Shown here: positions 19,709-32,491 of the stretch, in pieces
Layout of the letters: every line of letters starts with the position of its first letter
Numbering within the stretch: position 1 is the first letter of the stretch
Assembly (NCBI GenBank): GCA_903916085.1
Contig: CAIWVL010000360.1
Span: 1 to 32,491, forward strand
Source: an uncultured Spartobacteria bacterium
GTDB taxonomy: Bacteria > Verrucomicrobiota > Verrucomicrobiia > Chthoniobacterales > Chthoniobacteraceae
Reading direction: 5' to 3'
Length of the DNA: 32,491 bases
The notes under the pieces: generated by a model
What the model was told of the DNA's origin: nothing
The model's input: the letters and a program-made list of their open reading frames with translations, nothing else
Database searches by the model: none
Made by a program: the position numbers and the translations under genes

Positions 19709-20506
19709 CTAGACTACGTCCAGCCTAGGGCGGCCTGCCGCCACGAGACCCATCTTTTCCAGCTCAGAACTAAACCGCGCCAAACCCGAGTGTTCCGCAG
19801 CCCCCAGCTCAAACCGGATCTGCTCGCTCAAATACCGCAGCGCCAGCTCTGCGCCAAATTCCGTTTCCGCTCGCGCAATCTCTCCTATGGCGGCCTTGCC
19901 CGCGTGCGCCACCTCACGAAAAGCATCCGCCACGGCGTTCACGCCAGCCAAGTCGCGGCGCAGCACCCACACGGCGTACACAAACGGCAACCCGCTCCAA
20001 CGCGTCCAAGCCTCGCCCAAATCCCAAAACATCTCACCCGCAGATTCCTGACGAAGCCTGTGAGCGATGGCTTGGTTTCCAATCAGCAAACGACCTTTCG
20101 TCAAATCTTCAACACCCCCAAACTGCTCGCCCTCATTCACCAAAGGCAGCTCGCGCTTCAGCGCTCCCGCCGCCAGTACCTTGAATAAGTGTACGGACGT
20201 AAGTGACGCCGGATCCGCCGTCACCGCCGTCAATTCTTCCAACGGTCGCCGATGTGCCACGTACACGCTGTACACCGGGCCGTCGCTCGAAATTGCAACA
20301 CCATCCACAACGCGATAGTCTCCGGGTGCCCGTAGCAGCTCAAATACCGGCACAAGCGCCGCATCAATTCGGCCCGCGCGCAGTTGAGCGGCGAGTTCTC
20401 TGGGATGCGCCAGGAACACATCCTCAAGACCATGAATCAGCGGTCGACTGTTGAGATATTGCACGCAACCAATGCGAACCTCTCGTAAAGCATCGGGACG
20501 ACTCAT
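19709..20506 (-). CDS. mqnA: Chorismate dehydratase of the futalosine menaquinone pathway
   Basis: A 265-aa protein of the MqnA family (periplasmic-binding-protein fold, cytoplasmic). It dehydrates chorismate to 3-[(1-carboxyvinyl)oxy]benzoate, the first step of menaquinone synthesis through futalosine. The start RIGCVQYLNSRPLIHGL is the hallmark N-terminus; SDGPVYSVYV, SLTSVHLFKVL, LLIGNQAIAH and WTRWSGLPFVYAVWVLRRD follow in family order. Its ATG overlaps the stop of mqnE by 4 bp (20503-20506), so translational coupling is likely. MqnE uses the MqnA product, so the pair makes the aminodeoxyfutalosine step complete. Confidence 0.95.
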   Translation of the reverse strand: MSRPDALREVRIGCVQYLNSRPLIHGLEDVFLAHPRELAAQLRAGRIDAALVPVFELLRAPGDYRVVDGVAISSDGPVYSVYVAHRRPLEELTAVTADPASLTSVHLFKVLAAGALKRELPLVNEGEQFGGVEDLTKGRLLIGNQAIAHRLRQESAGEMFWDLGEAWTRWSGLPFVYAVWVLRRDLAGVNAVADAFREVAHAGKAAIGEIARAETEFGAELALRYLSEQIRFELGAAEHSGLARFSSELEKMGLVAAGRPRLDVV

Positions 20507-21642
20507 GCGGACACCACAGAACCCGAGGCAACGGGTGCAAGTTTTCTATAATAAGTGTCTCGCGGCACAGGCAATCGACCGGCTTCGCGAATCGCCTTTT
20601 CAAAGGCTGCCTGACTTTGGGCGATCGGGGTTTTGGCTCCAGCCATGTGAAAAATCTTTTCCTCCATGATGGTGCCGTGGAGGTCATCTACGCCGTAATT
20701 CAGGGCGAGCGATGCCAAAGGCAGTCCGAAGCTGATCCAGTAGGCAGTAATGTGCTCAAAATTGTCCAGGTAAATCCGGCTTACCGCGAGGGTGCGCAGC
20801 TCGTCCGCCGCAGTCGTCGGTGGAATGTGCGCTAGGTCTGTTGTCTCCGGGACGAAGGCGAATGGAATAAATGCGGTGAACCCACCCGTGCGATCTTGAA
20901 GGTCGCGAAGTCGACGCAAGTGATCGACGCGCTGTTCCAGCGTTTCCACATGCCCAAAAAGCATCGTTGCCGTGCTGCGCATGCCCATGCCATGCCAGAT
21001 TTCATGCACCTCCGCCCATTCCTCCGCAGTTTCCTTCCCACGACAAATACGATCCCGCACCTCCGGATCAAAAATCTCAGCACCTCCCCCAGTAATTGCG
21101 CCGAGTCCGGCGTCTCGAAGCAAGCCGAGCGTTTCTGCAACTGATTTTTTGAAGATGCGCTCCGCCAGATGACGGATTTCCACGGCGGTGAAGGCCTTGA
21201 GGAAAAGATCGGGGCTCAGCGCACGGAGGGTCTCGAGCAACTCAATGTACCAACTGCCAGGCAGCGTTGGATGTAGACCGCCCACCATGTGCACCTCAGT
21301 GATTCCCTGCCCGAGCCCGACCTTCACTTTGTCGGCAATCTGCTCAATGCTCAGCTCGAAGGCATGAGGATCCCTCTTCTTCGCGCTGAAGGCACAAAAC
21401 TGACAGGATAGAATACACAAATTCGAGTAGTTAACGTACAGATTGCGAATGTACGTCGCCATGTTGCCGTTCTTGCGATTGCGGATGACATTTGCAATGA
21501 GTCCCAGCGCGTTTAAGTCGTTGTGCCGAAACAATAACAACGCCTCCCTCTCCGTCACGCGCTCTTGAGCCAATACCTTGTCGTAAATCAACCGCAGATC
21601 CGAAGGCAAAAGGCGTGCTGCATGGGGTGAGGACGGGTCCAT
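20503..21642 (-). CDS. mqnE: Aminodeoxyfutalosine synthase (radical SAM)
   Basis: A 379-aa radical SAM enzyme that joins the MqnA product to the nucleoside part of S-adenosylmethionine to make aminodeoxyfutalosine. The [4Fe-4S] motif C-X3-C-X2-C reads NLCILSCQFCAFS. MqnE rather than MqnC is indicated by TGGGAEIFDPEVRDRICRGKE and by GMRSTATMLFGHVET in the second half. I use ATG 21642; a GTG two codons upstream (21648) is also possible. It leads a two-gene operon with mqnA, overlapping by 4 bp. Other menaquinone genes (mqnB, mqnC, mqnD) are not in the window. Confidence 0.93.
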   Translation of the reverse strand: MDPSSPHAARLLPSDLRLIYDKVLAQERVTEREALLLFRHNDLNALGLIANVIRNRKNGNMATYIRNLYVNYSNLCILSCQFCAFSAKKRDPHAFELSIEQIADKVKVGLGQGITEVHMVGGLHPTLPGSWYIELLETLRALSPDLFLKAFTAVEIRHLAERIFKKSVAETLGLLRDAGLGAITGGGAEIFDPEVRDRICRGKETAEEWAEVHEIWHGMGMRSTATMLFGHVETLEQRVDHLRRLRDLQDRTGGFTAFIPFAFVPETTDLAHIPPTTAADELRTLAVSRIYLDNFEHITAYWISFGLPLASLALNYGVDDLHGTIMEEKIFHMAGAKTPIAQSQAAFEKAIREAGRLPVPRDTYYRKLAPVASGSVVSA

Positions 21643-21945
21643 CCTCACAACCTAAACCGCGTCTCACAGAATTTCAACCGCCGCGCTCAGTGCTGGCACG
21701 GGAAAACGGAGCTGTTGAAAGCGTGAGCGTAAGCGGGGGGCTGTGACCTGAAACGACATCGTATGAAAGCCCCCCCGAATGGAGGCTAAAACAAGCCCGT
21801 CGTGATAGGAACGGATAGACTGGCCCCGCTCGGGAGAGCTCGCAGTACCCTGCCCTCCATAAATAACGAAATTTTTTCACGCAAGCGACGCCTGAGGAAT
21901 GCCAACTCCTTCGAGTTCGCCCCCTCTGGCACCGCGCCATAGCTT
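21643..21945 (-). other. 303-bp leader between the ABC-F gene and mqnE
   Basis: The main structure is a GC-rich stem described separately at 21734-21777. An 88-codon open frame on the minus strand in this stretch is Arg/Ser-rich and not credible. The gap must hold the end of the ABC-F transcript and the promoter of mqnE-mqnA, but no clear terminator with a T-run was seen. Confidence 0.4.
21734..21777 (-). promoter_or_regulatory. GC-rich stem-loop in the mqnE leader
   Basis: CGGGGGGCT (21734-21742) pairs with AGCCCCCCCG (21768-21777) with one bulged C, and encloses a 25-nt loop. It lies about 92 bp upstream of the mqnE start. It could be a terminator of the ABC-F transcript lacking a T-run, or a regulatory leader; no known riboswitch class was recognised. 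Confidence 0.35.
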
Positions 21946-23556
21946 CTAAGAGGCGGTCAACGCCGCACGCTCGTTACCAAATCCACCCGTCTTTTCGAGG
22001 AAATAGTCGTACCCACCAGGATACGCTGTCACCGCCCCGTTGTGCACATGTAACACCTTAGTCGCGAGCTTGCGAATGAAGTGCACGTCGTGAGAAATAA
22101 ACACGAGGGTGCCTTCGTAATGCTGGAGGGCCAAAATCAAGGACTCCACCGTGTGAATGTCCAAGTGCGTCGTCGGCTCATCCATGAGTAGAAAGTTTGG
22201 CGGATCGACCAAAAACTTGATCAAATTCAGCCGCGTCTTCTCCCCACCGCTAAGCACTGAGGTCTTCTTGTAAATGTCGTCTTTGCGAAATAAGAAACTC
22301 CCTAAGATGCCGCGCGCCTCGTTCTCCGCAAGAGTCGGAGCCGCGTCCATAACCTCCTGAAGAACGCTTTTATCGGGATCCAATGTGGCCGCTCGATGCT
22401 GACTGAAGTAGCCAATTTTGACATTCAGCCCAAGCTTCCGTTCGCCCTTCTGAAACTCCAGAACACCTGCGAGAATTTTTAAAAGCGTACTCTTACCCGA
22501 ACCGTTAGGGCCGACTAAAACCGTGCGTTCATCGCGCTCGATGTCTAAGCTTAATCCCTTGTACACTGGGTACTCACCATAGGCCATGTGCAGGTTCTCA
22601 AGCGCCACAACCTTCGCACCACTGCGCACCGGTTGCGGAATAATGAACCGGAAGGGCTTGCGGGGCGGTATCGGTTTTTCCACAAGCTCCATGCGCTCAA
22701 TCTGCTTGAGCTTACTCATGGCCTGCGAGGCCTTGGATGCCACCTGCCGAAACCGGTCGTAAAACTCGCGCAACGCCGAAATCTCTTTCTGCTGGTTTTT
22801 GTAAGAGGCGTTCTGACGTTCGTACGCTTCTTCCCGCTGCTCCAGGTAAGCGGTGTAGTTGCCCTTCCACTCCAGGAGTCGTTTCTCAGAAATCTCGAAA
22901 ACGTTCTCGATAATTTCATCCATGAACTGCCTGTCATGGGAGATGAGTAGGACCGCCCCTGAGTAGTCCTTGAGGTAAGCCTGGAGCCAGATAAGGGACA
23001 CCAAATCAAGATGGTTGGTTGGCTCGTCCAACATCAGCAAGTCCGGTTCCATCACCAGAAGCCGAGCCAAATGAGCGCGCATCACCCAGCCTCCGCTCAT
23101 CGTGCGCGCAGGGCGTCCATAGTCCCCCTCACGGTAGCCGAGCCCAGCAAGCATCTTCTTCGCCTTCGCATCCACCTTGGGATTGGTAAGAGCTTCATGC
23201 TTGGCTGAGGCCTCCATGTACTCGGCCCCCTCGACGTCACCGGCCTGCTCTAGTTCCCGTAAACGCTTCTCCAAAAGTGGCACCTCGGAAGCCCGGCCCG
23301 TTGCGATGTCCAACACAGTTTCATCACCAACCGCCTCAGCTTCCTGCGGCAAAAAGCCCACCATCGTCCAGGGATCGCGCTCAACGGTGCCAGAATCAGG
23401 TTCGTCTCGATTCAGGATGATCGAAAACAGCGTGCTCTTCCCTGCTCCATTTGGACCAACCAAGGCGACTTTCTCGCCATAGTTGACTTGCATAGAAGCG
23501 TTTTCAAACAGCGTGTTGCCCCCGTGGGACTTCTTCAGATTGCGAATGGTAAGCAT
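21946..23556 (-). CDS. ABC-F family ATPase (ribosome-associated)
   Basis: A 536-aa soluble protein with two ABC ATPase domains and no membrane segment, the ABC-F layout. These proteins bind in or near the ribosomal E site and affect translation. Domain 1: Walker A GPNGAGKST (34-42), signature TMSGGWVMR (about 152-160), Walker B LLMLDEPTNHLD. The linker between the domains (about 230-310) is the charged helical ABC-F 'P-site tip' region with KASQAMSKLKQIERME. Domain 2: Walker A GPNGSGKST (349-357), signature LSGGEKTRL, Walker B LLMDEPTTHLD. I start at ATG 23556 (MLTIRNLKKSHGG); the longer frame to 23670 reads unlike a protein. It may be Uup/YheS-like; the exact subfamily cannot be told by eye. 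Confidence 0.93.
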   Translation of the reverse strand: MLTIRNLKKSHGGNTLFENASMQVNYGEKVALVGPNGAGKSTLFSIILNRDEPDSGTVERDPWTMVGFLPQEAEAVGDETVLDIATGRASEVPLLEKRLRELEQAGDVEGAEYMEASAKHEALTNPKVDAKAKKMLAGLGYREGDYGRPARTMSGGWVMRAHLARLLVMEPDLLMLDEPTNHLDLVSLIWLQAYLKDYSGAVLLISHDRQFMDEIIENVFEISEKRLLEWKGNYTAYLEQREEAYERQNASYKNQQKEISALREFYDRFRQVASKASQAMSKLKQIERMELVEKPIPPRKPFRFIIPQPVRSGAKVVALENLHMAYGEYPVYKGLSLDIERDERTVLVGPNGSGKSTLLKILAGVLEFQKGERKLGLNVKIGYFSQHRAATLDPDKSVLQEVMDAAPTLAENEARGILGSFLFRKDDIYKKTSVLSGGEKTRLNLIKFLVDPPNFLLMDEPTTHLDIHTVESLILALQHYEGTLVFISHDVHFIRKLATKVLHVHNGAVTAYPGGYDYFLEKTGGFGNERAALTAS

Positions 23557-23756
23557 GGCAGAGGAGCGGCTCGAGATTATCGACGGGCAACCGCTCGTGA
23601 AGCAATGGGAATCCTCACAAGCAGCAACATCTCCCCGCCTTTTCGCCGCGCCTCGCGAATGACCTCGCAAAACAAAACCTCCGCCGCCTCCAAAGGCCTA
23701 GTAGGCAGTCACGCTGTACCTCGATAATCGGTAGAACACAAGCGGCCCCCCCCTTC

Positions 23757-25721
23757 TCACTCCTGCGGAATCGCTTCAATCACTACCAGCCAGTTCATCT
23801 GATGCACTGGCGGCAGATTCGCCGGACTGGCTAAAGGCGTCAACTCCGCCGCAACCCCGCTTTGCACCGCATCATCGCTCCCCGACTTCCAATCCATGGG
23901 TTTCCAAGGAACAGCCCCTCCCGATGCCAGGGTGCTCACTTGTCCATGAAAATCAAACGGTCGAACAGCCGCCGTTGTGCCGACACGCAATTCCCCCGCA
24001 AAAATAGATAGCGCCGGATAAAACACGCTCCCAGACACCAGCCCCGCTCCGACCGGCGTTGCCGATGCTGCCGTCACGTTTAAGTTATCACCCAAGTACA
24101 CACGATGCGGCGACACGATCGACAGACCTGCCGTAAAAGCCGTCAAGTCTTGCCCCTCACGTATGATTATTGCCATGTCCTCAGGTGCCGGCACATCAGC
24201 AGCCTGCCGCACCGTCAATGGATTCCCCGAGGCATCAGTCCGAAAGTGAATGCCGCAATTCACACGCACCGATGCCGCCCCCTGCGCAAGCAACCAGGCA
24301 TTGAGTCGCTCCGGATAAAACGTCAAACACGCGCGATTGGAGGCGGTAAATTCCGTTTGGAACGGGACAAGGTCACCGCCAGATTGAAGAGGCGTCGGCC
24401 AATTAGCACCCCGTTTTAGGCTGATTTCGGCAAAGTTTCCATCGGCCAACGCGTACCGTACTCTGAGCTCTATGGGCGTCTGGTCGGAAAGGCTCACCAT
24501 GGAAGTTATCGCCACACTAATGGCGCATTGCTCAGCACCTTGACTGTAGGCATCCCAGGCATTGGTGGATGCTACGTCAGCTGTACGCTGAAGAAACTGG
24601 TGCCCCCGTTGGATCGGTATAAAGGCAAGTCGCCCCGAGTTGGCGGATAGTGCCACCGGAAGTGTTTCATGATTTGAGACGGCTTGCAGGCCCTCTCGAA
24701 CCCCAGGCGCATCAAAGTCGTTGCCCACCAAAGTGCCGCCGATCAACATGGCCTTAGCGAAACTGACAGATTGCTTGGCTGTCACCCGCGAGGCCCCAAA
24801 CGTATCGTTCAAAGCGAGTTGACCCGCATATACACCTCCCGAAATCGTGATTTGCGACGCATCCCAGGTCGTCCCATCTTGGTGCGTTCCAATTTGAGCG
24901 AAACTTGCCGCCTCGATCGGTAATTGGGACGGTATTTCGTACAGCGATAGCACGTAGTATTTTGTGATGGACTGAAACTGTGATGCGGATCCGTCAGCAA
25001 CCCCTCCGAAGGTCACCGCAAAGGCCCACCAGTTGCGTTTGGCGACGATCGGTTGACCGGGGGCGGCGTACCCAAAGCGGATGTTTGGATAAGGAATGAA
25101 ATTGTAGATCGAGTAATTGCTGACGCTCGCGAGCAGTTCTGCCGATTGTACAGCGTACTTCTTTCCCAGCGACACGATGGGACGCACGGCGTCCACTCCC
25201 TGAAGGTTGCCAGGCACCTCCAGAAAGGGCGGTGTTTTACCCGCAAATCGCGCATCCCCGAAAACCGCTGCGTACTCCGTAGTTCCCGGCGTGACAGCCC
25301 CCACCACACCAGTTAGCGACTGGATCGACATTCGCAAGGCCACTTCAGCCGAACCACCTGGATTGCCGTTGCGCGAATTTTGCAGTCCCAAGGCGGTCAA
25401 GACTTCGGCCCCTAAAACCGTAGATGTCCCGGCCATTGACTGAGCGTCGGCAAAAAGCGTGGGCCATGAATAAACGTCAGACGTTGCATAATTGCCCTTC
25501 ATGCAGGCAATCACCTTTTGCGGAAAAACGGCCACGATAGCGCGCATTAAAGCTTCTTCGCGTTGGTGATAATCGATTCGGAGTTGGGCCTTAGACGCTT
25601 GATCACGATTCATCATTCCCCCCCGCAGCAACATCAATAAAGACAGCGAAAAGATCAGTGCCATCGCTGAGACCAATGGCAGGGCGGCAAATCCATGTTG
25701 TAACCATCGCCCATGCCTCAT
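23757..25721 (-). CDS. Large GspK/PilX-like minor pseudopilin
   Basis: A 654-aa protein with a pseudopilin-type N-terminus: GRWLQHGFAALPLVSAMALIFSLSLLML. The likely prepilin-peptidase cut is after the Gly before FAALP. Position +5 is Pro where other pilins have Glu; loss of Glu5 is a hallmark of GspK and PilX proteins, which cap the pseudopilus. The rest is a large export-type ectodomain rich in Ser/Thr/Ala/Gly. Its N-terminal ATG (25721) overlaps the preceding gene by 4 bp, and a GGAGGGG lies 5-6 nt upstream. It is the last gene of the minus operon, as gspK is in type II secretion. A Verru_Chthon cassette-type protein is an alternative family name. The size is about twice that of typical GspK. 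Confidence 0.75.
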   Translation of the reverse strand: MRHGRWLQHGFAALPLVSAMALIFSLSLLMLLRGGMMNRDQASKAQLRIDYHQREEALMRAIVAVFPQKVIACMKGNYATSDVYSWPTLFADAQSMAGTSTVLGAEVLTALGLQNSRNGNPGGSAEVALRMSIQSLTGVVGAVTPGTTEYAAVFGDARFAGKTPPFLEVPGNLQGVDAVRPIVSLGKKYAVQSAELLASVSNYSIYNFIPYPNIRFGYAAPGQPIVAKRNWWAFAVTFGGVADGSASQFQSITKYYVLSLYEIPSQLPIEAASFAQIGTHQDGTTWDASQITISGGVYAGQLALNDTFGASRVTAKQSVSFAKAMLIGGTLVGNDFDAPGVREGLQAVSNHETLPVALSANSGRLAFIPIQRGHQFLQRTADVASTNAWDAYSQGAEQCAISVAITSMVSLSDQTPIELRVRYALADGNFAEISLKRGANWPTPLQSGGDLVPFQTEFTASNRACLTFYPERLNAWLLAQGAASVRVNCGIHFRTDASGNPLTVRQAADVPAPEDMAIIIREGQDLTAFTAGLSIVSPHRVYLGDNLNVTAASATPVGAGLVSGSVFYPALSIFAGELRVGTTAAVRPFDFHGQVSTLASGGAVPWKPMDWKSGSDDAVQSGVAAELTPLASPANLPPVHQMNWLVVIEAIPQE

Positions 25722-26254
25722 CGGGCCCCTCCACTGTAGGTGATCAGCTCTCCATTCGGGCCATGAAGCGTGACGGCTAGAATCCCATCCGCATTGAAAA
25801 ATTCGGCTGAAGCGACCTTGCCTGAGACCGTCCATGCGGTTGCAGTGCCTCCGTTTTGTGGCGTGTAACACCTAAGGGCCGGCCCAGAGCTTGTTAATTC
25901 CACTGAAAGCACACACGACGAAAAGGTTTGAGTGGCTGAATTGAAAAACAGCTTTACCGCCGAGCCTCCACCTAAAATCGGCACGCCATTCCCGAGAGCC
26001 GCAGCTTTATCCGCATAAATAAAATAGTGGTCTGCGCCATTCATTATTCGAATAAGCAGGTTGCCGATTTTCGGGGCTTCGGAGGTCAGAAACGATTGTC
26101 GCTGACTCAACTGCATCAATAGAACATGCTGTTGCAACATGGCCAAAAGTGCGCTCGAAAGAATCATAAGCACAGCCATTGCCGAGGACATTTCCAGAAG
26201 CGTAAAGCCGCTCAAAATGCAAGTTTTCGTTAACAAACGTGCGCCTAACTTCAT
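25718..26254 (-). CDS. GspJ/PilW-like minor pseudopilin
   Basis: A 178-aa protein with a class III signal: a basic leader (MKLGARLLTKTCILSG), cut after Gly, then FTLLEMSSAMAVLMILSSALLAML with Glu at +5, a full N-terminal helix of a type IV pilin. The ectodomain (about 50-178) is beta-rich and ends with VTLHGPNGELITYSG. It overlaps both neighbours by 4 bp (ATGA), so the three pilin-like genes are translationally coupled. The position matches gspJ. Sequence alone cannot separate GspJ from PilW. Confidence 0.8.
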   Translation of the reverse strand: MKLGARLLTKTCILSGFTLLEMSSAMAVLMILSSALLAMLQQHVLLMQLSQRQSFLTSEAPKIGNLLIRIMNGADHYFIYADKAAALGNGVPILGGGSAVKLFFNSATQTFSSCVLSVELTSSGPALRCYTPQNGGTATAWTVSGKVASAEFFNADGILAVTLHGPNGELITYSGGAR

Positions 26255-26718
26255 TGCGTGCGAATTGTGGACCGACTTTTCACGTATTGCTGCTCCCCAA
26301 CTGAGTAGCTGAGCACCGAATGCAGGCACCAGACCGTGACATTGGTTTCGGAATTGTCCAATGGCGTCTCATTGACGCGAAATCGGATCAGTTGCGCAAC
26401 CACCGGGCTACCTCCTGGAAGTGCGCCGAGACTCACCGTTTGGTTCATAGTCGGCGGGACATCAAGCGCCGAGTCTGGCCAGGCAGACGGGTGCGTCGTC
26501 AAATCCGCCACGGGGACACGGTTGGAAAGAGCCGTTTCACGGGTCAAATAAGCGTCCGTTAGCGTCTGCATAACGGTCCATTGGTTGCCAGAAATGGCCA
26601 GCAAGAAACCCTTCATGACCATCAAAGCCAGAAAAACGGCAAGCCCCAGAGCAACGGTTGCCTCCATCAGTACAATGCCCGCTTGGCGCGCACCGATCGC
26701 CAATGATGCGCGTCTCAT
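26251..26718 (-). CDS. GspI/PilV-like minor pseudopilin
   Basis: A 155-aa protein with leader MRRASLAIGARQAG and the pilin segment IVLMEATVALGLAVFLALMVMKGF; Glu at +5 after the cut site Gly. The shape matches GspI/PilV. The mature domain carries a single Cys (VWCLHSVLSYSVG) and ends on SRSTIRTQ. I start at ATG 26718, as the longer frame would place a basic, non-conserved stretch before the leader. It precedes the J-like gene with a 4-bp overlap and follows an unknown exported protein by 37 bp. Confidence 0.78.
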   Translation of the reverse strand: MRRASLAIGARQAGIVLMEATVALGLAVFLALMVMKGFLLAISGNQWTVMQTLTDAYLTRETALSNRVPVADLTTHPSAWPDSALDVPPTMNQTVSLGALPGGSPVVAQLIRFRVNETPLDNSETNVTVWCLHSVLSYSVGEQQYVKSRSTIRTQ

Positions 26719-26755
26719 GAAATGTGGATTAAGAAGCACATGTCTTAATTTACTT

Positions 26756-27841
26756 CTAAGGTGCTTCGGCAGAACCAAAAGCGCCACGGCTCGAAATCGC
26801 CCTCTGCACTTCAAACGACACACTAAGGAGCCGTTCCCCAGTACGTTTAAAAAAAGGTGTCTCAGAAATTACCTCTAACGTATAGGTGCCAGACGCAGAG
26901 GCGTACCCCGAGAGGTTATCGATTGTCATGGAAACGTCTTGGGGCACATTGGTCGCCGAGGCACCCTGCCCTACATTATAATACGATCCGTACCGCCGTT
27001 CCGTCCCCGTGATCACAGTTCCCGCCTTGCCAAGAACAGATCCACCAGAGTAAATTTGAACATACAACCTAGAATCTGGATAGGCATGTTTCACATTAAT
27101 ATTAACACTTGGAATGCGGTCGCTGAAAATTTGATTTGCCGCAAAATTTGTTATTGTACAAGTCGTAACCGGCCACACTTGAAGCGTAGGCTGTGCTAAA
27201 ATTGTATCGGGCACTTGATCTGCTGCGTAACGCACAAAGGTGTACGTCTGTTGACCACAACCATTCATTAGAAGTGGGGAATGAAGTTCGTGGTAAACTG
27301 GGCCCCATACTAAAGAGCCATTACCCAGGTTATAATGTTGCAGCGGATAAACAGACTGATTTAGTGAAGAATAACTCACTGGATCGTAATCCATCCCATC
27401 TACGCTATAGTAAACAGATGTCTCTGCCGCACTGGCTCCGCTTGCTGTGACCAGTCCAGACACATTTGTTGTGACAGTAAAAGGCCGATCAGCGCGACTC
27501 CGCTTCACATACGTGCCGCTGAACGGATCGCCAGACACGTAATTATCTTCAGATACAATCGTAATGGTCGCAGCCGGGGCGTAGGCGTAAATGAGCTTAG
27601 TATCTAAAAGATAAATGTTGCAGTCCCAGGCCGTGCCACGCGCGTAAAGTTCAAACTTAGCTCCGAGATCACTCACGGGGAGTGGCGCGGCAAAAGCTCC
27701 ACCGGGTGTCGTCATTGGCATGTCATAAACTTGTCCCGTGGCTAAGTCTGTTTGACGCACAAAAGCATCCGTCGTGCTCCCGAAAACTGAGACGGCTCCG
27801 ATCAGACCGAACCACAAAGTAGATTGGAAGGCGTGTTTCAT
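26756..27841 (-). CDS. Exported protein of unknown function
   Basis: A 361-aa protein with a Sec signal (MKHAFQSTLWFGLIGAVSVFGS, cleavage near 22-25) and a mature part rich in Tyr, Ser, Thr and Val, suggesting beta-sandwich structure, with strand pairs such as ITIVSEDNYVSGDPFSGTYV and TYTLEVISETPFFK. No catalytic motif was recognised. A GGAG six bases before ATG 27841 fits a ribosome binding site. It sits directly before the pseudopilin genes (37 bp) and 16 bp after the previous exported protein, so it belongs to the same operon and may be a substrate, surface or tip-associated component of the machine. The base composition is more AT-rich than the metabolic genes. Confidence 0.7.
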   Translation of the reverse strand: MKHAFQSTLWFGLIGAVSVFGSTTDAFVRQTDLATGQVYDMPMTTPGGAFAAPLPVSDLGAKFELYARGTAWDCNIYLLDTKLIYAYAPAATITIVSEDNYVSGDPFSGTYVKRSRADRPFTVTTNVSGLVTASGASAAETSVYYSVDGMDYDPVSYSSLNQSVYPLQHYNLGNGSLVWGPVYHELHSPLLMNGCGQQTYTFVRYAADQVPDTILAQPTLQVWPVTTCTITNFAANQIFSDRIPSVNINVKHAYPDSRLYVQIYSGGSVLGKAGTVITGTERRYGSYYNVGQGASATNVPQDVSMTIDNLSGYASASGTYTLEVISETPFFKRTGERLLSVSFEVQRAISSRGAFGSAEAP

Positions 27842-27857
27842 TTTGGACTCCAGGAAC

Positions 27858-28457
27858 TTACTCCGACTTAGCTCCACTACGGGGCGGCACGGGTTCCAAA
27901 ATCGTGATGGGGCACCCCCGATACACCGCCACAAACATACGGCCATCAGCGGCCAGATCATGCATGACCACAGCAGCCGCCTTCACATCTCCCCTAGACA
28001 TCGCCAGGCTCACCTCTTTCGTCCCCAGCCAATCGCTGTTTCGTGCCAGAAAGTCGGGCCACAACAAAAGCACGCCCTCAGGCTTGGTCACGACGCGCGC
28101 TCGGAGCTTTCCCGGTAAACTGAGCACTGAGCCAATCGGGATAATGGTGTAAAACTTCTCATCAATTATAAAAATCGACGCCATCCCCAAAGATCCCTCC
28201 GTCGAAGGTACCCGCTCTAAAAGCGGCACTGATTGCGAAGCTACCCGTTCTTGCAGTTTGGCGGCATCTCGTGCCAGTTGCCGTAAAGCCTTCTCCTCAA
28301 TCACATCCCGGATCGGCCCTTTTCTGACCTCAGCTTTGGTAATTTCTGAAAACTCCTCGCAAAGTCCAGAAAGAGAGCTGATACACAAGCAAGACACCGC
28401 TAAAACAATTAATTTTACGCATTCGCAAAAAAAGGTCCTTTTATTTATTTTTTCCAT
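27858..28457 (-). CDS. Exported protein of unknown function
   Basis: A 199-aa protein with a signal peptide that holds several Cys (CECVKLIVLAVSCLCISSLSGLC, cleavage near residue 33) and a mature part with a charged helical stretch (about 35-85), then a beta-type block FIIDEKFYTIIPIGSVLSLP and ends with PITILEPVPP. No family was recognised. It lies between the two other exported proteins of the operon, 16 bp before the next. Confidence 0.65.
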   Translation of the reverse strand: MEKINKRTFFCECVKLIVLAVSCLCISSLSGLCEEFSEITKAEVRKGPIRDVIEEKALRQLARDAAKLQERVASQSVPLLERVPSTEGSLGMASIFIIDEKFYTIIPIGSVLSLPGKLRARVVTKPEGVLLLWPDFLARNSDWLGTKEVSLAMSRGDVKAAAVVMHDLAADGRMFVAVYRGCPITILEPVPPRSGAKSE

Positions 28458-28486
28458 ATCTTAATGATGTAAAATTATTTGAATTA

Positions 28487-29089
28487 TTAATTCCGAATAA
28501 TAGTAGCCGTGCCACTAGGGAATGAATTCGCAGAGTTGCTTTTAAGTTCCCACATTCCATTGGGAAAATATAAGGTTCCAGTAGGCGGAGGCGGGTCTTT
28601 TTGAACTTCACCTAAAATGTTGAAAAAACCGTTGGGCTGTTTCCCACTCCCGTCACCTTGCCATACTAGATCAACGTCTATTGGAACTGTTGTCGCAGTA
28701 AATACCGCCGCCGGACAAAGAAGTAGAGTTTGGAGCGGACTGGAGTTGAATGTCGCGACGTCGACGAATGTCAACTGGATCGCTTGCGCAGGCGGAGTGC
28801 TGCTGTTTTTTGACGAGACGAAAGCTTTGTAATTTATCACCCCCCCGTTGCCCTTGCTGCCAAGTGAATTTTGCCCCCCAACAGTTGAGCCTTTGGCTTC
28901 CGTTCCTAAGAAGATAAATTTGTAGCAGCCGAGAAGCGTGCTCGTATTGCGAAATGGCACAAACGTCGCAGACTGGCTCCCAAGGGCGATGCCAGGGGCA
29001 TTCAATGCGAGATTGCCGCGTGCAGAATCAGTCACCGACTGAAGGCACAACAACCCGAAATAAAGCAAAGCGAACGAACGGATTCTCAT
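28487..29089 (-). CDS. Exported protein of unknown function, first gene of the operon
   Basis: A 200-aa protein starting at ATG 29089 with a signal peptide (MRIRSFALLYFGLLCLQSVTDSARG), then a Ser/Thr/Asn/Gly-rich mature part, with two Cys (LLGCYKF, LLLCPAAVF) that could form a disulfide, and a Pro-rich turn DPPPPTG near the end. No function can be suggested. It is the first gene of the minus operon; the next gene begins 30 bp on. It diverges from the major pseudopilin gene across 312 bp. Confidence 0.6.
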   Translation of the reverse strand: MRIRSFALLYFGLLCLQSVTDSARGNLALNAPGIALGSQSATFVPFRNTSTLLGCYKFIFLGTEAKGSTVGGQNSLGSKGNGGVINYKAFVSSKNSSTPPAQAIQLTFVDVATFNSSPLQTLLLCPAAVFTATTVPIDVDLVWQGDGSGKQPNGFFNILGEVQKDPPPPTGTLYFPNGMWELKSNSANSFPSGTATIIRN

Positions 29090-29401
29090 AGCGTCAAAGA
29101 ATTGAGTGACCGCCCCAGAATCGTGGATGCGGGTCTTCCTGGCTGTTCGGCACGAAAAATTCGGTTCCCTCAACTTTTTTGCGGCCACCAAAGCGCAGCG
29201 GGACGATTCACCGGTGCATTCATGAGCCGGGGTTGTACTTCAAACTCCAGTATCTAGGCCGTTGATAAGAGATAAAAGCACTAGATTACATTCAGAGAGA
29301 GATGGCCGTGAGTCATTTCCCGAAATCCGAGACACCAAAAATAGATATCTGCTAATAGCGTTACTTCTATTTTTTAAATTATATTGAAATTAGTTTCAGT
29401 T
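29090..29401. other. 312-bp divergent promoter region of the pseudopilin operons
   Basis: An AT-rich stretch lies close to the plus gene (29240-29401), and holds candidate promoter elements such as TTGATA (29262-29267) but with poor spacing to a -10. No operator palindrome or riboswitch was recognised. Both operons are probably controlled from here. Confidence 0.5.
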
Positions 29402-29827
29402 ATGAAAATAAATAAACAAACAACTCGTCGAATCCACTTGTCCGGCATGACGCTCATCGAAGTTAGCCTTGTGATCGCATTGATGCTTGGCCTCATCTCC
29501 GTTGCCTTCTTGGGAATCGGTGCCTATCGGAAGGGCGCGAACAAGGCGCGATGCCGCATGCAGTTGGCAGCTGTTCAAAAAGCAGTTCGCGCACAGGCTA
29601 ACTTTTCAAACCTGAACATCGGAGCAGCGTTCACAAGCACCGACGCTTTCGGAACCGGCAAGGCGCTGGAAACCGCCCCAGCCTGCCCCTCCGGAGGGAC
29701 CTACACTTGGGGAACCAAAATTCCCACGTTGCACAATCCTTTTGGCTCTTGCGACTACCAAGACACAGACGGCGTAACCACACATGCATTAGTTGCAGGC
29801 ATCGCCGGTGACACCCGAGATTGGTAG
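29402..29827 (+). CDS. Major-type pseudopilin (GspG/PilA-like)
   Basis: A 141-aa prepilin. The leader MKINKQTTRRIHLSG is cut after Gly, then MTLIEVSLVIALMLGLISVAFLG; Glu at +5, and the N-terminal residue is Met, an N-methylated position. The C-terminal region has Cys residues in CPSGGTYTWG and GSCDYQD, likely a disulfide-bonded loop; I recall this CPSGGTYT pattern in pilin-like proteins of Verrucomicrobiota and relatives. ATG 29402 is used; a TTG at 29384 is in frame. It leads the plus operon and is followed, after 33 bp, by the GspL-like gene. Confidence 0.85.
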   Translation: MKINKQTTRRIHLSGMTLIEVSLVIALMLGLISVAFLGIGAYRKGANKARCRMQLAAVQKAVRAQANFSNLNIGAAFTSTDAFGTGKALETAPACPSGGTYTWGTKIPTLHNPFGSCDYQDTDGVTTHALVAGIAGDTRDW

Positions 29828-29860
29828 GCCAACAAATTCCAAAGCCCCATAGGTTCTCCC

Positions 29861-31729
29861 ATGACTTCCATCGTAGATCCTATCACATTAAAGCCTGCCG
29901 ATGTTTATCGGCAGGCTTGCGTTGTTAACGCAAAAACAAGCAGAGGCCATGACCGCGGCTGGAGTCAGGATCCCGTGGATCTCAATTTCCAGTGGCACCT
30001 TTGGTTTGACGGTGGCAGCGAAGTTGTCTCGGCTACATTCTCTCGCGTAGATAGCCGCTGGAAAAAAGGCCCGCCCCTTCCTTTATCAATCTTAACCTCT
30101 GGTCAAGGCGTGGAAGATATTTTGAGCCGACTGCTCGATCCCGCGCATTTCGGACAGCGTCCCAACGCACTCGGAGTGATTTTACACGTTGCCGATGAGT
30201 TTGCCCTATCAGAAGTTGCTCACAAAGGAAACGTAGCGGGCGCTACCGATCAGGATTTTGCCATTCTCCACTTCAACCTTATCGATGATCCACAGGAATT
30301 TCTTGTAGATCGTGAAGGGGCTGTCGAAGCAACTTCCTGGCGGCTTCTGCCGTTTTGGGGAGCAGGTACCGAAGAAGAGCCTTGCACCGCCATTTCTTTG
30401 TCCCGATCGCGGGAGGTATTTTTGCGGAATCTTCTCCAGCTTGGCGAACAGTGGCGCACCCCGATTCGGGTCAGTGTGACGGCAGCGCCTTTGGAAGCTT
30501 TTGCTGCCTTGCCTCTTCTCAGTCCGGCGCTTGCCGGAGGCCGACTGATCGCCGTGACTTATTTGAAGTTCACCACGGTGTTTGCCCTTACTCAGTTGGG
30601 CGAATTACGCAGTATGCGCACCTTGTTGCATCGGGGAAACGCACCCACTCCAGCGGGATTCGGAGACGTCCTCTGGAACATGGCACTTAGCGCAGAGTTG
30701 ACAAACCCAGGGAGGACACGTGGAGAACCTCCCAAAGTGCTGCTTCTAGCTGCCAATCCGGTTGCCCTACAGGCCGCCCGAAAAGACCTCGAAGCCTATT
30801 CGTACACCAGAAATCCGATTCGTCTGGAACTCCTGGATCTTACTAAGCAATCCCTGCTCCAAGAAATTCCCCACTTTCGTCCAGAGTTTCTGGTGTATGA
30901 CAATACTCTAATAAAGCAGGGATTATCAGGAACGAGTGCACTCGCGAAGTCGCGAACTTTCACCACGCTGTGGAACGCGTGGCTGCGTGGATTTAATTTT
31001 TTTAACTTTGCAAAGCTGGATTTAAATTATCCTACGCTTCAGGATCTACGCCTTCTTAAAGCAGCTAAATGGATTGTGCGGGGCGCTGTAATTTTACTAT
31101 TAGGAGCGTCCATTCATTGCGCGCTCCTAATTATTGAAACAATTAGAAATCCAGCATGGACCCTAACAGAACAGGAGCTCAATCAATCGGTAGATGCGCA
31201 AACTGCGATCCAAACTGAACGCAACAAAATTAACGTAACGAATACGTTAATGCAATCTCGTTCCCGCGGATGGGTTGCGCTTGAATTCCTATTGCAATTA
31301 TTTCCAGAGAATTCAGCTATTATACTGGAAACATTCCAATATAGCGTAGAAACGACGCAACCGACTACTCCGACGCCTGATGGGCAGGCAGTGCCATCCG
31401 CTGGCATGGTCCGGACTTGGATTATTAAAGGCGTGGGTATGCCAAAATCGCTTGAATGCTTGAACAAATTAAGCACTTCCCGTGGGGTGACTGCCTTTTT
31501 TAAGAACATCGCTATTTCAACCGGCGATTATAGCTACAACCCAGACAATTCCCGACAAATTACCGCAACCCAAAATCAAGGTAGAAACCCAAAGTTTAAT
31601 GCTAATGCTGGAGTGTTCGAACTAACCCACGACATCTCTGTATCTTTTCCAATTCATTTTGAAGCTACGATCACACAAATAATTTCGGAAAAAGATACAC
31701 TGGCGTTTCCTACTAAAACTCCACTCTGA
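29861..31729 (+). CDS. GspL/PilM-PilN-like inner membrane assembly protein
   Basis: A 622-aa protein with a cytoplasmic domain of about 400 residues, one membrane segment (about 404-426; IVRGAVILLLGASIHCALLII) and a periplasmic domain of about 195 residues. This arrangement matches GspL, which joins a PilM-like actin fold to a PilN-like stem. The segment FNFFNFAKLDLNYPTLQDL before the membrane helix resembles the 'N-L-L' peptide that links PilN to PilM. I see no clear ATP-binding motif in the cytoplasmic domain. The start is ATG 29861, but a strong hairpin covers codons 11-20, and GTG at 29975 (residue 39) is an alternative start. It directly abuts the GspM-like gene. Confidence 0.65.
   Translation: MTSIVDPITLKPADVYRQACVVNAKTSRGHDRGWSQDPVDLNFQWHLWFDGGSEVVSATFSRVDSRWKKGPPLPLSILTSGQGVEDILSRLLDPAHFGQRPNALGVILHVADEFALSEVAHKGNVAGATDQDFAILHFNLIDDPQEFLVDREGAVEATSWRLLPFWGAGTEEEPCTAISLSRSREVFLRNLLQLGEQWRTPIRVSVTAAPLEAFAALPLLSPALAGGRLIAVTYLKFTTVFALTQLGELRSMRTLLHRGNAPTPAGFGDVLWNMALSAELTNPGRTRGEPPKVLLLAANPVALQAARKDLEAYSYTRNPIRLELLDLTKQSLLQEIPHFRPEFLVYDNTLIKQGLSGTSALAKSRTFTTLWNAWLRGFNFFNFAKLDLNYPTLQDLRLLKAAKWIVRGAVILLLGASIHCALLIIETIRNPAWTLTEQELNQSVDAQTAIQTERNKINVTNTLMQSRSRGWVALEFLLQLFPENSAIILETFQYSVETTQPTTPTPDGQAVPSAGMVRTWIIKGVGMPKSLECLNKLSTSRGVTAFFKNIAISTGDYSYNPDNSRQITATQNQGRNPKFNANAGVFELTHDISVSFPIHFEATITQIISEKDTLAFPTKTPL
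29891..29918 (+). promoter_or_regulatory. Perfect 12-bp hairpin in the first codons of the GspL-like gene
   Basis: AAGCCTGCCGAT (29891-29902), loop GTTT, ATCGGCAGGCTT (29907-29918): a perfect 12-bp stem with a tetraloop, then the smaller palindrome GCGTTGTTAACGC (29919-29931). It lies 64 bp after the pseudopilin stop. It has the shape of an intrinsic terminator with a weak T-tract, so partial termination or RNA processing after the pilin gene is plausible. Confidence 0.65.
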
Positions 31730-32290
31730 ATGAGTAATTACACGATCCCAATCATTCGTTATGGGCTCATTGCTCCCCTTTTAGCATTTGGTATATCCAC
31801 TGCTATTTTGTTTATCATAGAAACCCGCGTCCAACGAGTCCATCAGCAAAAGCAAATACGCTATAATGAACAGATGACGCGTCTTGATTCCATCCGAAAG
31901 ATCGAAGACGAAATCAGACCAAAAAGGCATCTTTTCCAGGAACAAAACCGTTTGCTTCAGTTGGACCCCACGCCATTATTTGCACAACTTTCAGATGCAA
32001 CGGTCGCCAAATACCAACCACTGGCGCTTGAGCGTACGGGAATGCTCTACGTGACGGAGCGCGGACGTTTTGCACGCTACATAGAAGGCAGTCCAGCTCG
32101 AATCAAAGCTAGCTTCGAAGGTGGATTCGGACCAATGCAAGAAACCCTATTGCAAGTCGAGTCGTTAATACCGCACGTCATTCTTGAGGAACTTAAAATT
32201 TCTCGTAAAGTAACGTCCCTTCCCAATTCAAATTCTCTCATTTTTGAGCTGAGCTACATTTTCCCAAAAATAGCAGGAGACAAGCCATGA
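31730..32290 (+). CDS. GspM/PilO-like inner membrane protein
   Basis: A 186-aa protein with one N-terminal membrane segment (about 9-31; LIAPLLAFGISTAILFII), a coiled-coil region (about 32-75), and a periplasmic domain that ends in a beta-type stretch (SNSLIFELSYIFPKI). This is the PilO/GspM layout, and the place after a PilN/GspL-like gene fits. It begins immediately after the preceding stop codon and overlaps the next gene by 4 bp (32287-32290), so the three are coupled. Confidence 0.65.
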   Translation: MSNYTIPIIRYGLIAPLLAFGISTAILFIIETRVQRVHQQKQIRYNEQMTRLDSIRKIEDEIRPKRHLFQEQNRLLQLDPTPLFAQLSDATVAKYQPLALERTGMLYVTERGRFARYIEGSPARIKASFEGGFGPMQETLLQVESLIPHVILEELKISRKVTSLPNSNSLIFELSYIFPKIAGDKP

Positions 32291-32491
32291 AAAAAATTTA
32301 CATACTCATTGTAATGGTTTGCTTCATTTCCATTTCTCCCCATGCTCTAGCTCAAATAGAAAAAATAAATCAAAGATTTTTCGGGCGTGAAAAAGTAATT
32401 AGTCTAGCGACTGGTTCGCTTTTACCAACCGCGAACGACGTTGAAGAACTTGCTCAAAAACTAAGCTCTCGAAAACGCCACATGAGCCCCT
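32287..32491 (+). CDS. Exported protein, 5' part (cut by window edge)
   Basis: Sixty-eight codons are present. The start MKKIYILIVMVCFISISPHALA is a Sec signal with a cleavage site after ALA, followed by QIEKINQRFFGREKV. The position after GspM/PilO-like suggests a component such as PilP, GspC or a secretin, but the visible part is too short to tell. ATG 32287 overlaps the stop of the previous gene by 4 bp. Confidence 0.7.
   Translation, partial: MKKIYILIVMVCFISISPHALAQIEKINQRFFGREKVISLATGSLLPTANDVEELAQKLSSRKRHMSP

Follow-up and report, generated by a model that had tools for sequence, protein, structure and literature searches.

A divergent type IV filament locus of Verrucomicrobiota that probably encodes a retractable type IVa-like pilus

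Half of a complete type IV filament machine, its left part, is encoded at the right-hand end of a 32,491-nucleotide stretch of DNA from an uncultured Spartobacteria bacterium (hereafter the window), and the other half lies on another contig. We read the machine with moderate confidence as a retractable type IVa-like pilus. The gene set and its recurrence in relatives point to a specialised fibre that can retract and carries tip proteins of its own, more than to a standard secretion system. The window is the whole of contig C359; the assembly (G000) comprises 379 contigs and is 97% complete. The machine consists of about 20 genes and is carried by roughly one in three genomes sampled from one order, yet most of its proteins are left unnamed by curated models. 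We found no description of it among open-access papers, and Verrucomicrobia are not mentioned in the main text of a 2019 survey of the superfamily.

Gene content of the locus

The open reading frames confirm the two divergent operons described in an earlier, sequence-only reading of this DNA. Six minus-strand genes follow each other in the order F-E-D-C-B-A (5' to 3'), with ATGA overlaps at the C/B and B/A junctions, and the plus strand encodes G, L, M and then a gene that is interrupted at the contig end (Table 1). That reading had also assigned I-, J- and K-like genes and three unknown exported proteins to the minus operon, and G-, L- and M-like genes and another exported protein to the plus operon. 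These genes correspond to C, B and A with D, E and F on one strand and, on the other, to G, L, M and the truncated gene at the GspC/PilP position.

Table 1. Genes of the filament locus in the window (f1, the window's family; f5, f15 and f18, families of relatives)
Gene	Assignment	Position	Strand	Basis
A	K-type minor pilin (putative cap), ~650 aa	23757-25721	-	prepilin-like N-terminus without Glu5; kept in f1, f5, f15, f18
B	J-like (PilW/GspJ) minor pilin	25718-26254	-	Glu5 present; weak HMM matches, N-terminal profile alignment
C	I-like (PilV/GspI) minor pilin	26251-~26718	-	Glu5 present; profile alignment (weak)
D	exported non-pilin, candidate tip protein	26756-~27841	-	no Pfam/NCBIfam/PDB match
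E	exported non-pilin	27858-28457	-	linkage in f1 and f18, and in a single f15 genome
F	exported non-pilin	28487-29089	-	f1 and f18 only
G	small type IV pilin, candidate major pilin	29384-29827	+	Glu5; paired Cys in most homologues
L	GspL-position protein	29861-31729	+	one TM segment ~2/3 along; GspL E 0.027, HofN E 0.013 (weak)
M	GspM/PilO-position protein	31730-32290	+	N-terminal TM segment; XpsM E 0.008; otherwise position
	GspC/PilP-position exported protein, N-terminal part	32314-32491	+	in-frame remainder at G000:C125 (L027:1-399)

The likeness of these proteins to I, J, K, G, L and M is weak by HMM and is supported by prepilin signals, gene order and profile alignment of the pilin N-termini. 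With single-sequence HMMs, B matched ComGE, N_methyl and GspJ (E 0.002-0.13), G matched GspH (E 0.004) and M matched XpsM; C, A and L gave no match in Pfam or NCBIfam. Type III (prepilin) signals with a Glu at mature position 5 are present in B, C and G. Protein A keeps the shape of this signal and lacks Glu5, with FAALP in the window; in the homologues read, this position is occupied by P or L. In known systems a Glu5-less subunit caps the tip complex, which is the role of the K subunit (PMC10191384). Since Glu5 is missing in all members read, as in the K subunit, we interpret A as a tip-capping minor pilin. E. coli GspK is half as long as A, and past the N-terminus the two cannot be aligned.

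L, M and the gene at the C position were assigned mainly from order and topology. The hhalign alignments of L to GspL and HofN are weak and lie around the TM segment; L is possibly a fusion of PilM and PilN. By the same method, M and the GspC/PilP-position protein gave nothing against single E. coli Gsp/Hof sequences, and profile alignment of the cluster proteins revealed no significant match to GspK or GspC. D, E and F resemble Sec-exported non-pilins by eye and matched no Pfam or NCBIfam family, and PilY1 was not found by Pfam or NCBIfam among the exported proteins of the cluster. Profile searches of the PDB with L, A and D returned no real match, and AlphaFold models of A and D reached a pLDDT of ~43, the alignment depth being too low.

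Continuation on a second contig

The earlier statement that the secretin, ATPase and platform genes are absent holds for the contig only. A family search of the contigs found six T2SSE-family ATPases and three secretins in the host genome. One contig, C125, carries one of these secretins and one of the ATPases, and it starts inside the gene that is interrupted at the window end. The contig end thus explains the absence. Residues 48-85 of a 216-aa reference protein are encoded at window 32377-32490 and residues 85-216 at C125:1-396, in compatible frames. The two contig ends share at most 4 bases, and the join is consistent with these sequences though not proven by overlap.

After the split gene, C125 encodes a secretin, a protein that we call x203, a PilB/GspE-like ATPase, a platform protein, a short exported protein, a second pilin (G2), and then an ABC ATPase, a permease and a third protein of ~295 aa. 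The contig extension proposed in the sequence-only reading therefore recovered the secretin, a PilB-like ATPase and the platform protein. The Walker A, Walker B and His-box motifs of the motor ATPases are intact. The x203 gene (L027:2128-2739) is conserved between secretin and ATPase; its product has no TM segment evident by eye, matched no Pfam or NCBIfam model, and is a new cytoplasmic component. A PilT orthologue of the cluster type was not found in the window's own genome, and the two PilTs present there are canonical.

Conservation in relatives

Whole-gene homologues in conserved synteny occur in four families (f1, f18, f15 and f5), which is more than chance would produce. In two genomes of the window's genus (G001, G005) all genes lie on one contig, the two operons are convergent, and a PilT-like gene follows A. 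In the window an ABC-F ATPase gene (21946-23670, minus strand) lies directly after A, at this same site. A locus from a Prosthecobacter metagenome-assembled genome (L009) contains the same gene set and ends at the PilT gene, and the same set is present in four f18 genomes (G395, G398, G407, G425) and, in different order, in f15. Family f5, from the same order as the window, has a divergent form of the cluster. In the relatives from f1 and f18 the gene of the PilT-family ATPase follows A, and in f15 and f5 it is next to G-L. A prepilin peptidase gene (PF06750/PF01478) adjoins F in G005 and G013.

D is present in f1, f18 and f15, and an iterated profile gave a remote match in f5 (63-82 bits); E and F are distributed as listed in Table 1. 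The neighbourhood check thus confirmed that the exported proteins are linked with pilins in relatives (f1, f18, f15), and no close characterised homologue was found. Apart from PilT, the genes of the window strain are open and full length, with ~42-78% identity to those of relatives.

Some relatives carry additional copies. In G009 (L045:1397-4199) a second F-E-D set and the last quarter of a PilT gene precede F-E-D-C-B-A, an arrangement that looks like a duplicated operon with a lost middle. In G524, a B-A set and a C-B-A set stand in tandem at a distance of ~11 kb from the machine (L089:1-5971); the minor-pilin module can therefore be multiplied. In the divergent f5 version the gene of the small pilin G is present twice, in tandem (L016:8980-9780).

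Relation to known filament systems

The machine contains PF00437 and PF00482 proteins and pilin N-termini, with the peptidase seen in relatives, and so belongs to the type IV filament superfamily. All scores against curated families fall below cut-off. The extension ATPase scores 320 bits with M. xanthus PilB, in an alignment that spans almost the whole protein, and 286 bits with GspE over the catalytic part; against NCBIfam it scores 286 bits for PilB (cut-off 676) and 282 for GspE (cut-off 630). The secretin scores 136 bits for SctC, 130 for GspD (cut-off 351) and 122 for PilQ (cut-off 284), so that both proteins give near ties. The platform protein scores best with GspF (128 bits, cut-off 424); its score for PilC is 103 bits (cut-off 700). 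The retraction-type ATPase of the relatives belongs to the PilT family (TIGR01420, 246 bits, cut-off 319), and its best PDB matches are PilT. PilB, PilC and PilQ above their curated cut-offs, by which a type IVa pilus would be recognised, are not found. The same is true of the marks of a type II secretion system (T2SS), namely GspD, GspE and GspF above cut-off, recognisable GspC, GspK and GspL, and a cluster free of PilT: the clusters of f1, f18, f15 and f5 all include a PilT-like gene.

In the ATPase tree the family is monophyletic with full support and sits on a long, deep branch of its own. Three other ATPases of the host genome, as well as E. coli GspE and HofB, fall outside it. The host genome also encodes a GspD/GspE pair on C334 and an Amuc_1098-type secretin on C155. 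Since GspD/GspE-type and Amuc_1098-type machines are encoded separately, the system in the window is a third machine. Like the Amuc_1098-type pilus of Akkermansia, it is a type IV filament machine from Verrucomicrobiota that includes a secretin. Identity with that pilus was rejected, as the secretin scores 53 bits against NF042912 (cut-off 750) and the C155 secretin scores 710. The Verru_Chthon cassettes of Verrucomicrobia consist of one large and three prepilin-like proteins. This identity was rejected as well, since no Verru_Chthon model of NCBIfam matches A, B or C at E<=1.

The M. xanthus type IVa pilus shares with this machine the extension ATPase and, as found in most clusters of relatives, the retraction ATPase, the platform and the secretin, an MNOP-like block order, a minor-pilin cap, exported non-pilin partners and an ABC-transporter trio, which we liken to PilG/H/I by analogy. 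In contrast to M. xanthus, the window's L is a single protein of PilM-plus-PilN length, no PilY1 is recognisable in the cluster, x203 is an extra conserved cytoplasmic protein, and the scores lie far under the PilB, PilQ, PilC and PilT cut-offs. The T2SS (GspC-M) is similar in its L-M-C-D-E-F plus G-I-J-K content and in the minor pilin order I-J-K, but differs from this system, which has the ABC trio, two small pilins and, in most clusters, a dedicated PilT.

Proposed pilus and alternatives

The reading as a retractable pilus is based on the dedicated PilT, the affinity of the extension ATPase to PilB, and the ABC trio. In M. xanthus, PilG/H/I are essential for the translocation of pilin across the inner membrane (PMC3724824). 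By this precedent, the ATPase, permease and third protein encoded on C125 may help to insert or export the prepilins. The prepilin peptidase found beside F in relatives would cleave pilins G and G2 and the minor pilins A, B and C, after which C, B and the Glu5-less A could initiate the complex at the tip. Extension of the filament through the secretin would be driven by the PilB-like ATPase with the platform protein, both docked on L-M-C, and the dedicated PilT-like ATPase would retract it. In the window strain, where the cluster lacks the PilT-like gene, either a canonical PilT acts in trans or retraction has been lost. D, E and F, once exported, may serve as adhesins or effectors located at the tip or close to it. 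Gene content, linkage, motor motifs and pilin signals are direct observations, from which we infer filament formation, retraction, the tip position of D, E and F and the role of the ABC trio.

Since the platform protein leans to GspF, a secretion system also has to be considered. The locus would then encode a divergent T2SS, in which a short pseudopilus drives periplasmic substrates, perhaps D, E and F, through the secretin. The minor pilin order I-J-K is that of gsp operons (the E. coli operon was compared), M shows GspM-type hints, and the exported partners are co-encoded, F-E-D even being duplicated in G009. Nevertheless, most clusters have a dedicated PilT-type ATPase, which T2SS lack, the extension ATPase is nearer to PilB over its full length, the ABC trio is known from pilus assembly in M. 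xanthus, and a better GspD/GspE match exists elsewhere in the same genome. We consider a T2SS unlikely on this balance. The same machine could serve as a competence pilus with D, E and F as DNA-binding tip proteins, a function with which a retraction ATPase and a minor-pilin cap are compatible. This seems improbable, as we noticed no recognised competence gene beside the clusters and D, E and F carry no pointers to DNA binding. Decay in the window strain of a system that is intact in relatives would account for the absence of PilT from the window operon and has a parallel in the PilT remnant after the partly deleted duplicate of G009, but is very improbable given that the remaining genes are all open, full length and similar to those of relatives.

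Returning to the retractable pilus, we can offer a more far-reaching proposal only tentatively: the machine may represent a separate class of type IV filament, restricted to one class of Verrucomicrobiota and defined by ABC-assisted pilin export, an oversized K-type cap, a cytoplasmic subunit between secretin and motor, and exported D-E(-F) proteins as a novel, non-PilY1 tip. The gene set, together with that of the Prosthecobacter relatives, provides a test bed for filaments, ABC-assisted pilin export and a non-PilY1 tip.

Distribution and origin

L was found in 7 of 97 relatives (for the window's family the count is 5 of 40), and A in 8 of the 213 genomes of the window's order, including all 7 with L. 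Among the 97 shared genomes, L occurs in 7, A in 8 and both in 7 (hypergeometric 6e-10, to be read with the caveat that linked genes are not independent); within the order, A and L co-occur even when they are on separate contigs. D is present in 5 of the 213 genomes, exactly the f1 genomes with the machine. In the sister order (that of G395), 133 of 387 genomes have the ATPase at E<=1e-150; the figure is 110 of 269 for genomes of high quality and 20 of 50 for genera. The ATPase is absent from genus g47 of f15 (genomes of 2.4-3.2 Mb). Across a phylum-wide sample, strong ATPase matches are confined to the class. With the linkage conserved and no close characterised homologue found, the earlier suggestion that the set may be a secretion or fibre system particular to Verrucomicrobiota, and not yet described as one, is supported.

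From the placement of L009, f18 would be the Prosthecobacter family, and the window appears to belong to another order. The ATPase tree puts f1 inside f18 (98/92 with G712) and has f5, which shares its order with f1, branching deepest. Topology tests on the ATPase disfavoured f18 held together without f1 (p-AU 0.018) and f1 with f5 (0.034). A quick tree of seven concatenated genes placed f1 beside f18 with full support and not nested within it. The presence of the machine in f1 is patchy, and the G+C content of the locus is 50.6%, compared with 56.2% for the rest of the window. Considering the ATPase tree, the patchy presence and the lower G+C content, horizontal transfer, with the Prosthecobacter family as donor, is the likely origin of the machine in the window's family.

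Other genes in the window

Two further features lie on the minus strand of the window. A 739-aa open reading frame (769-2988) fuses a low-molecular-weight phosphatase, ribose-5-phosphate isomerase B and serine hydroxymethyltransferase, an unusual triple fusion. At 19709-21648, VitK2_biosynth and CofH/MqnC radical-SAM genes adjoin each other, as in futalosine-type menaquinone synthesis.
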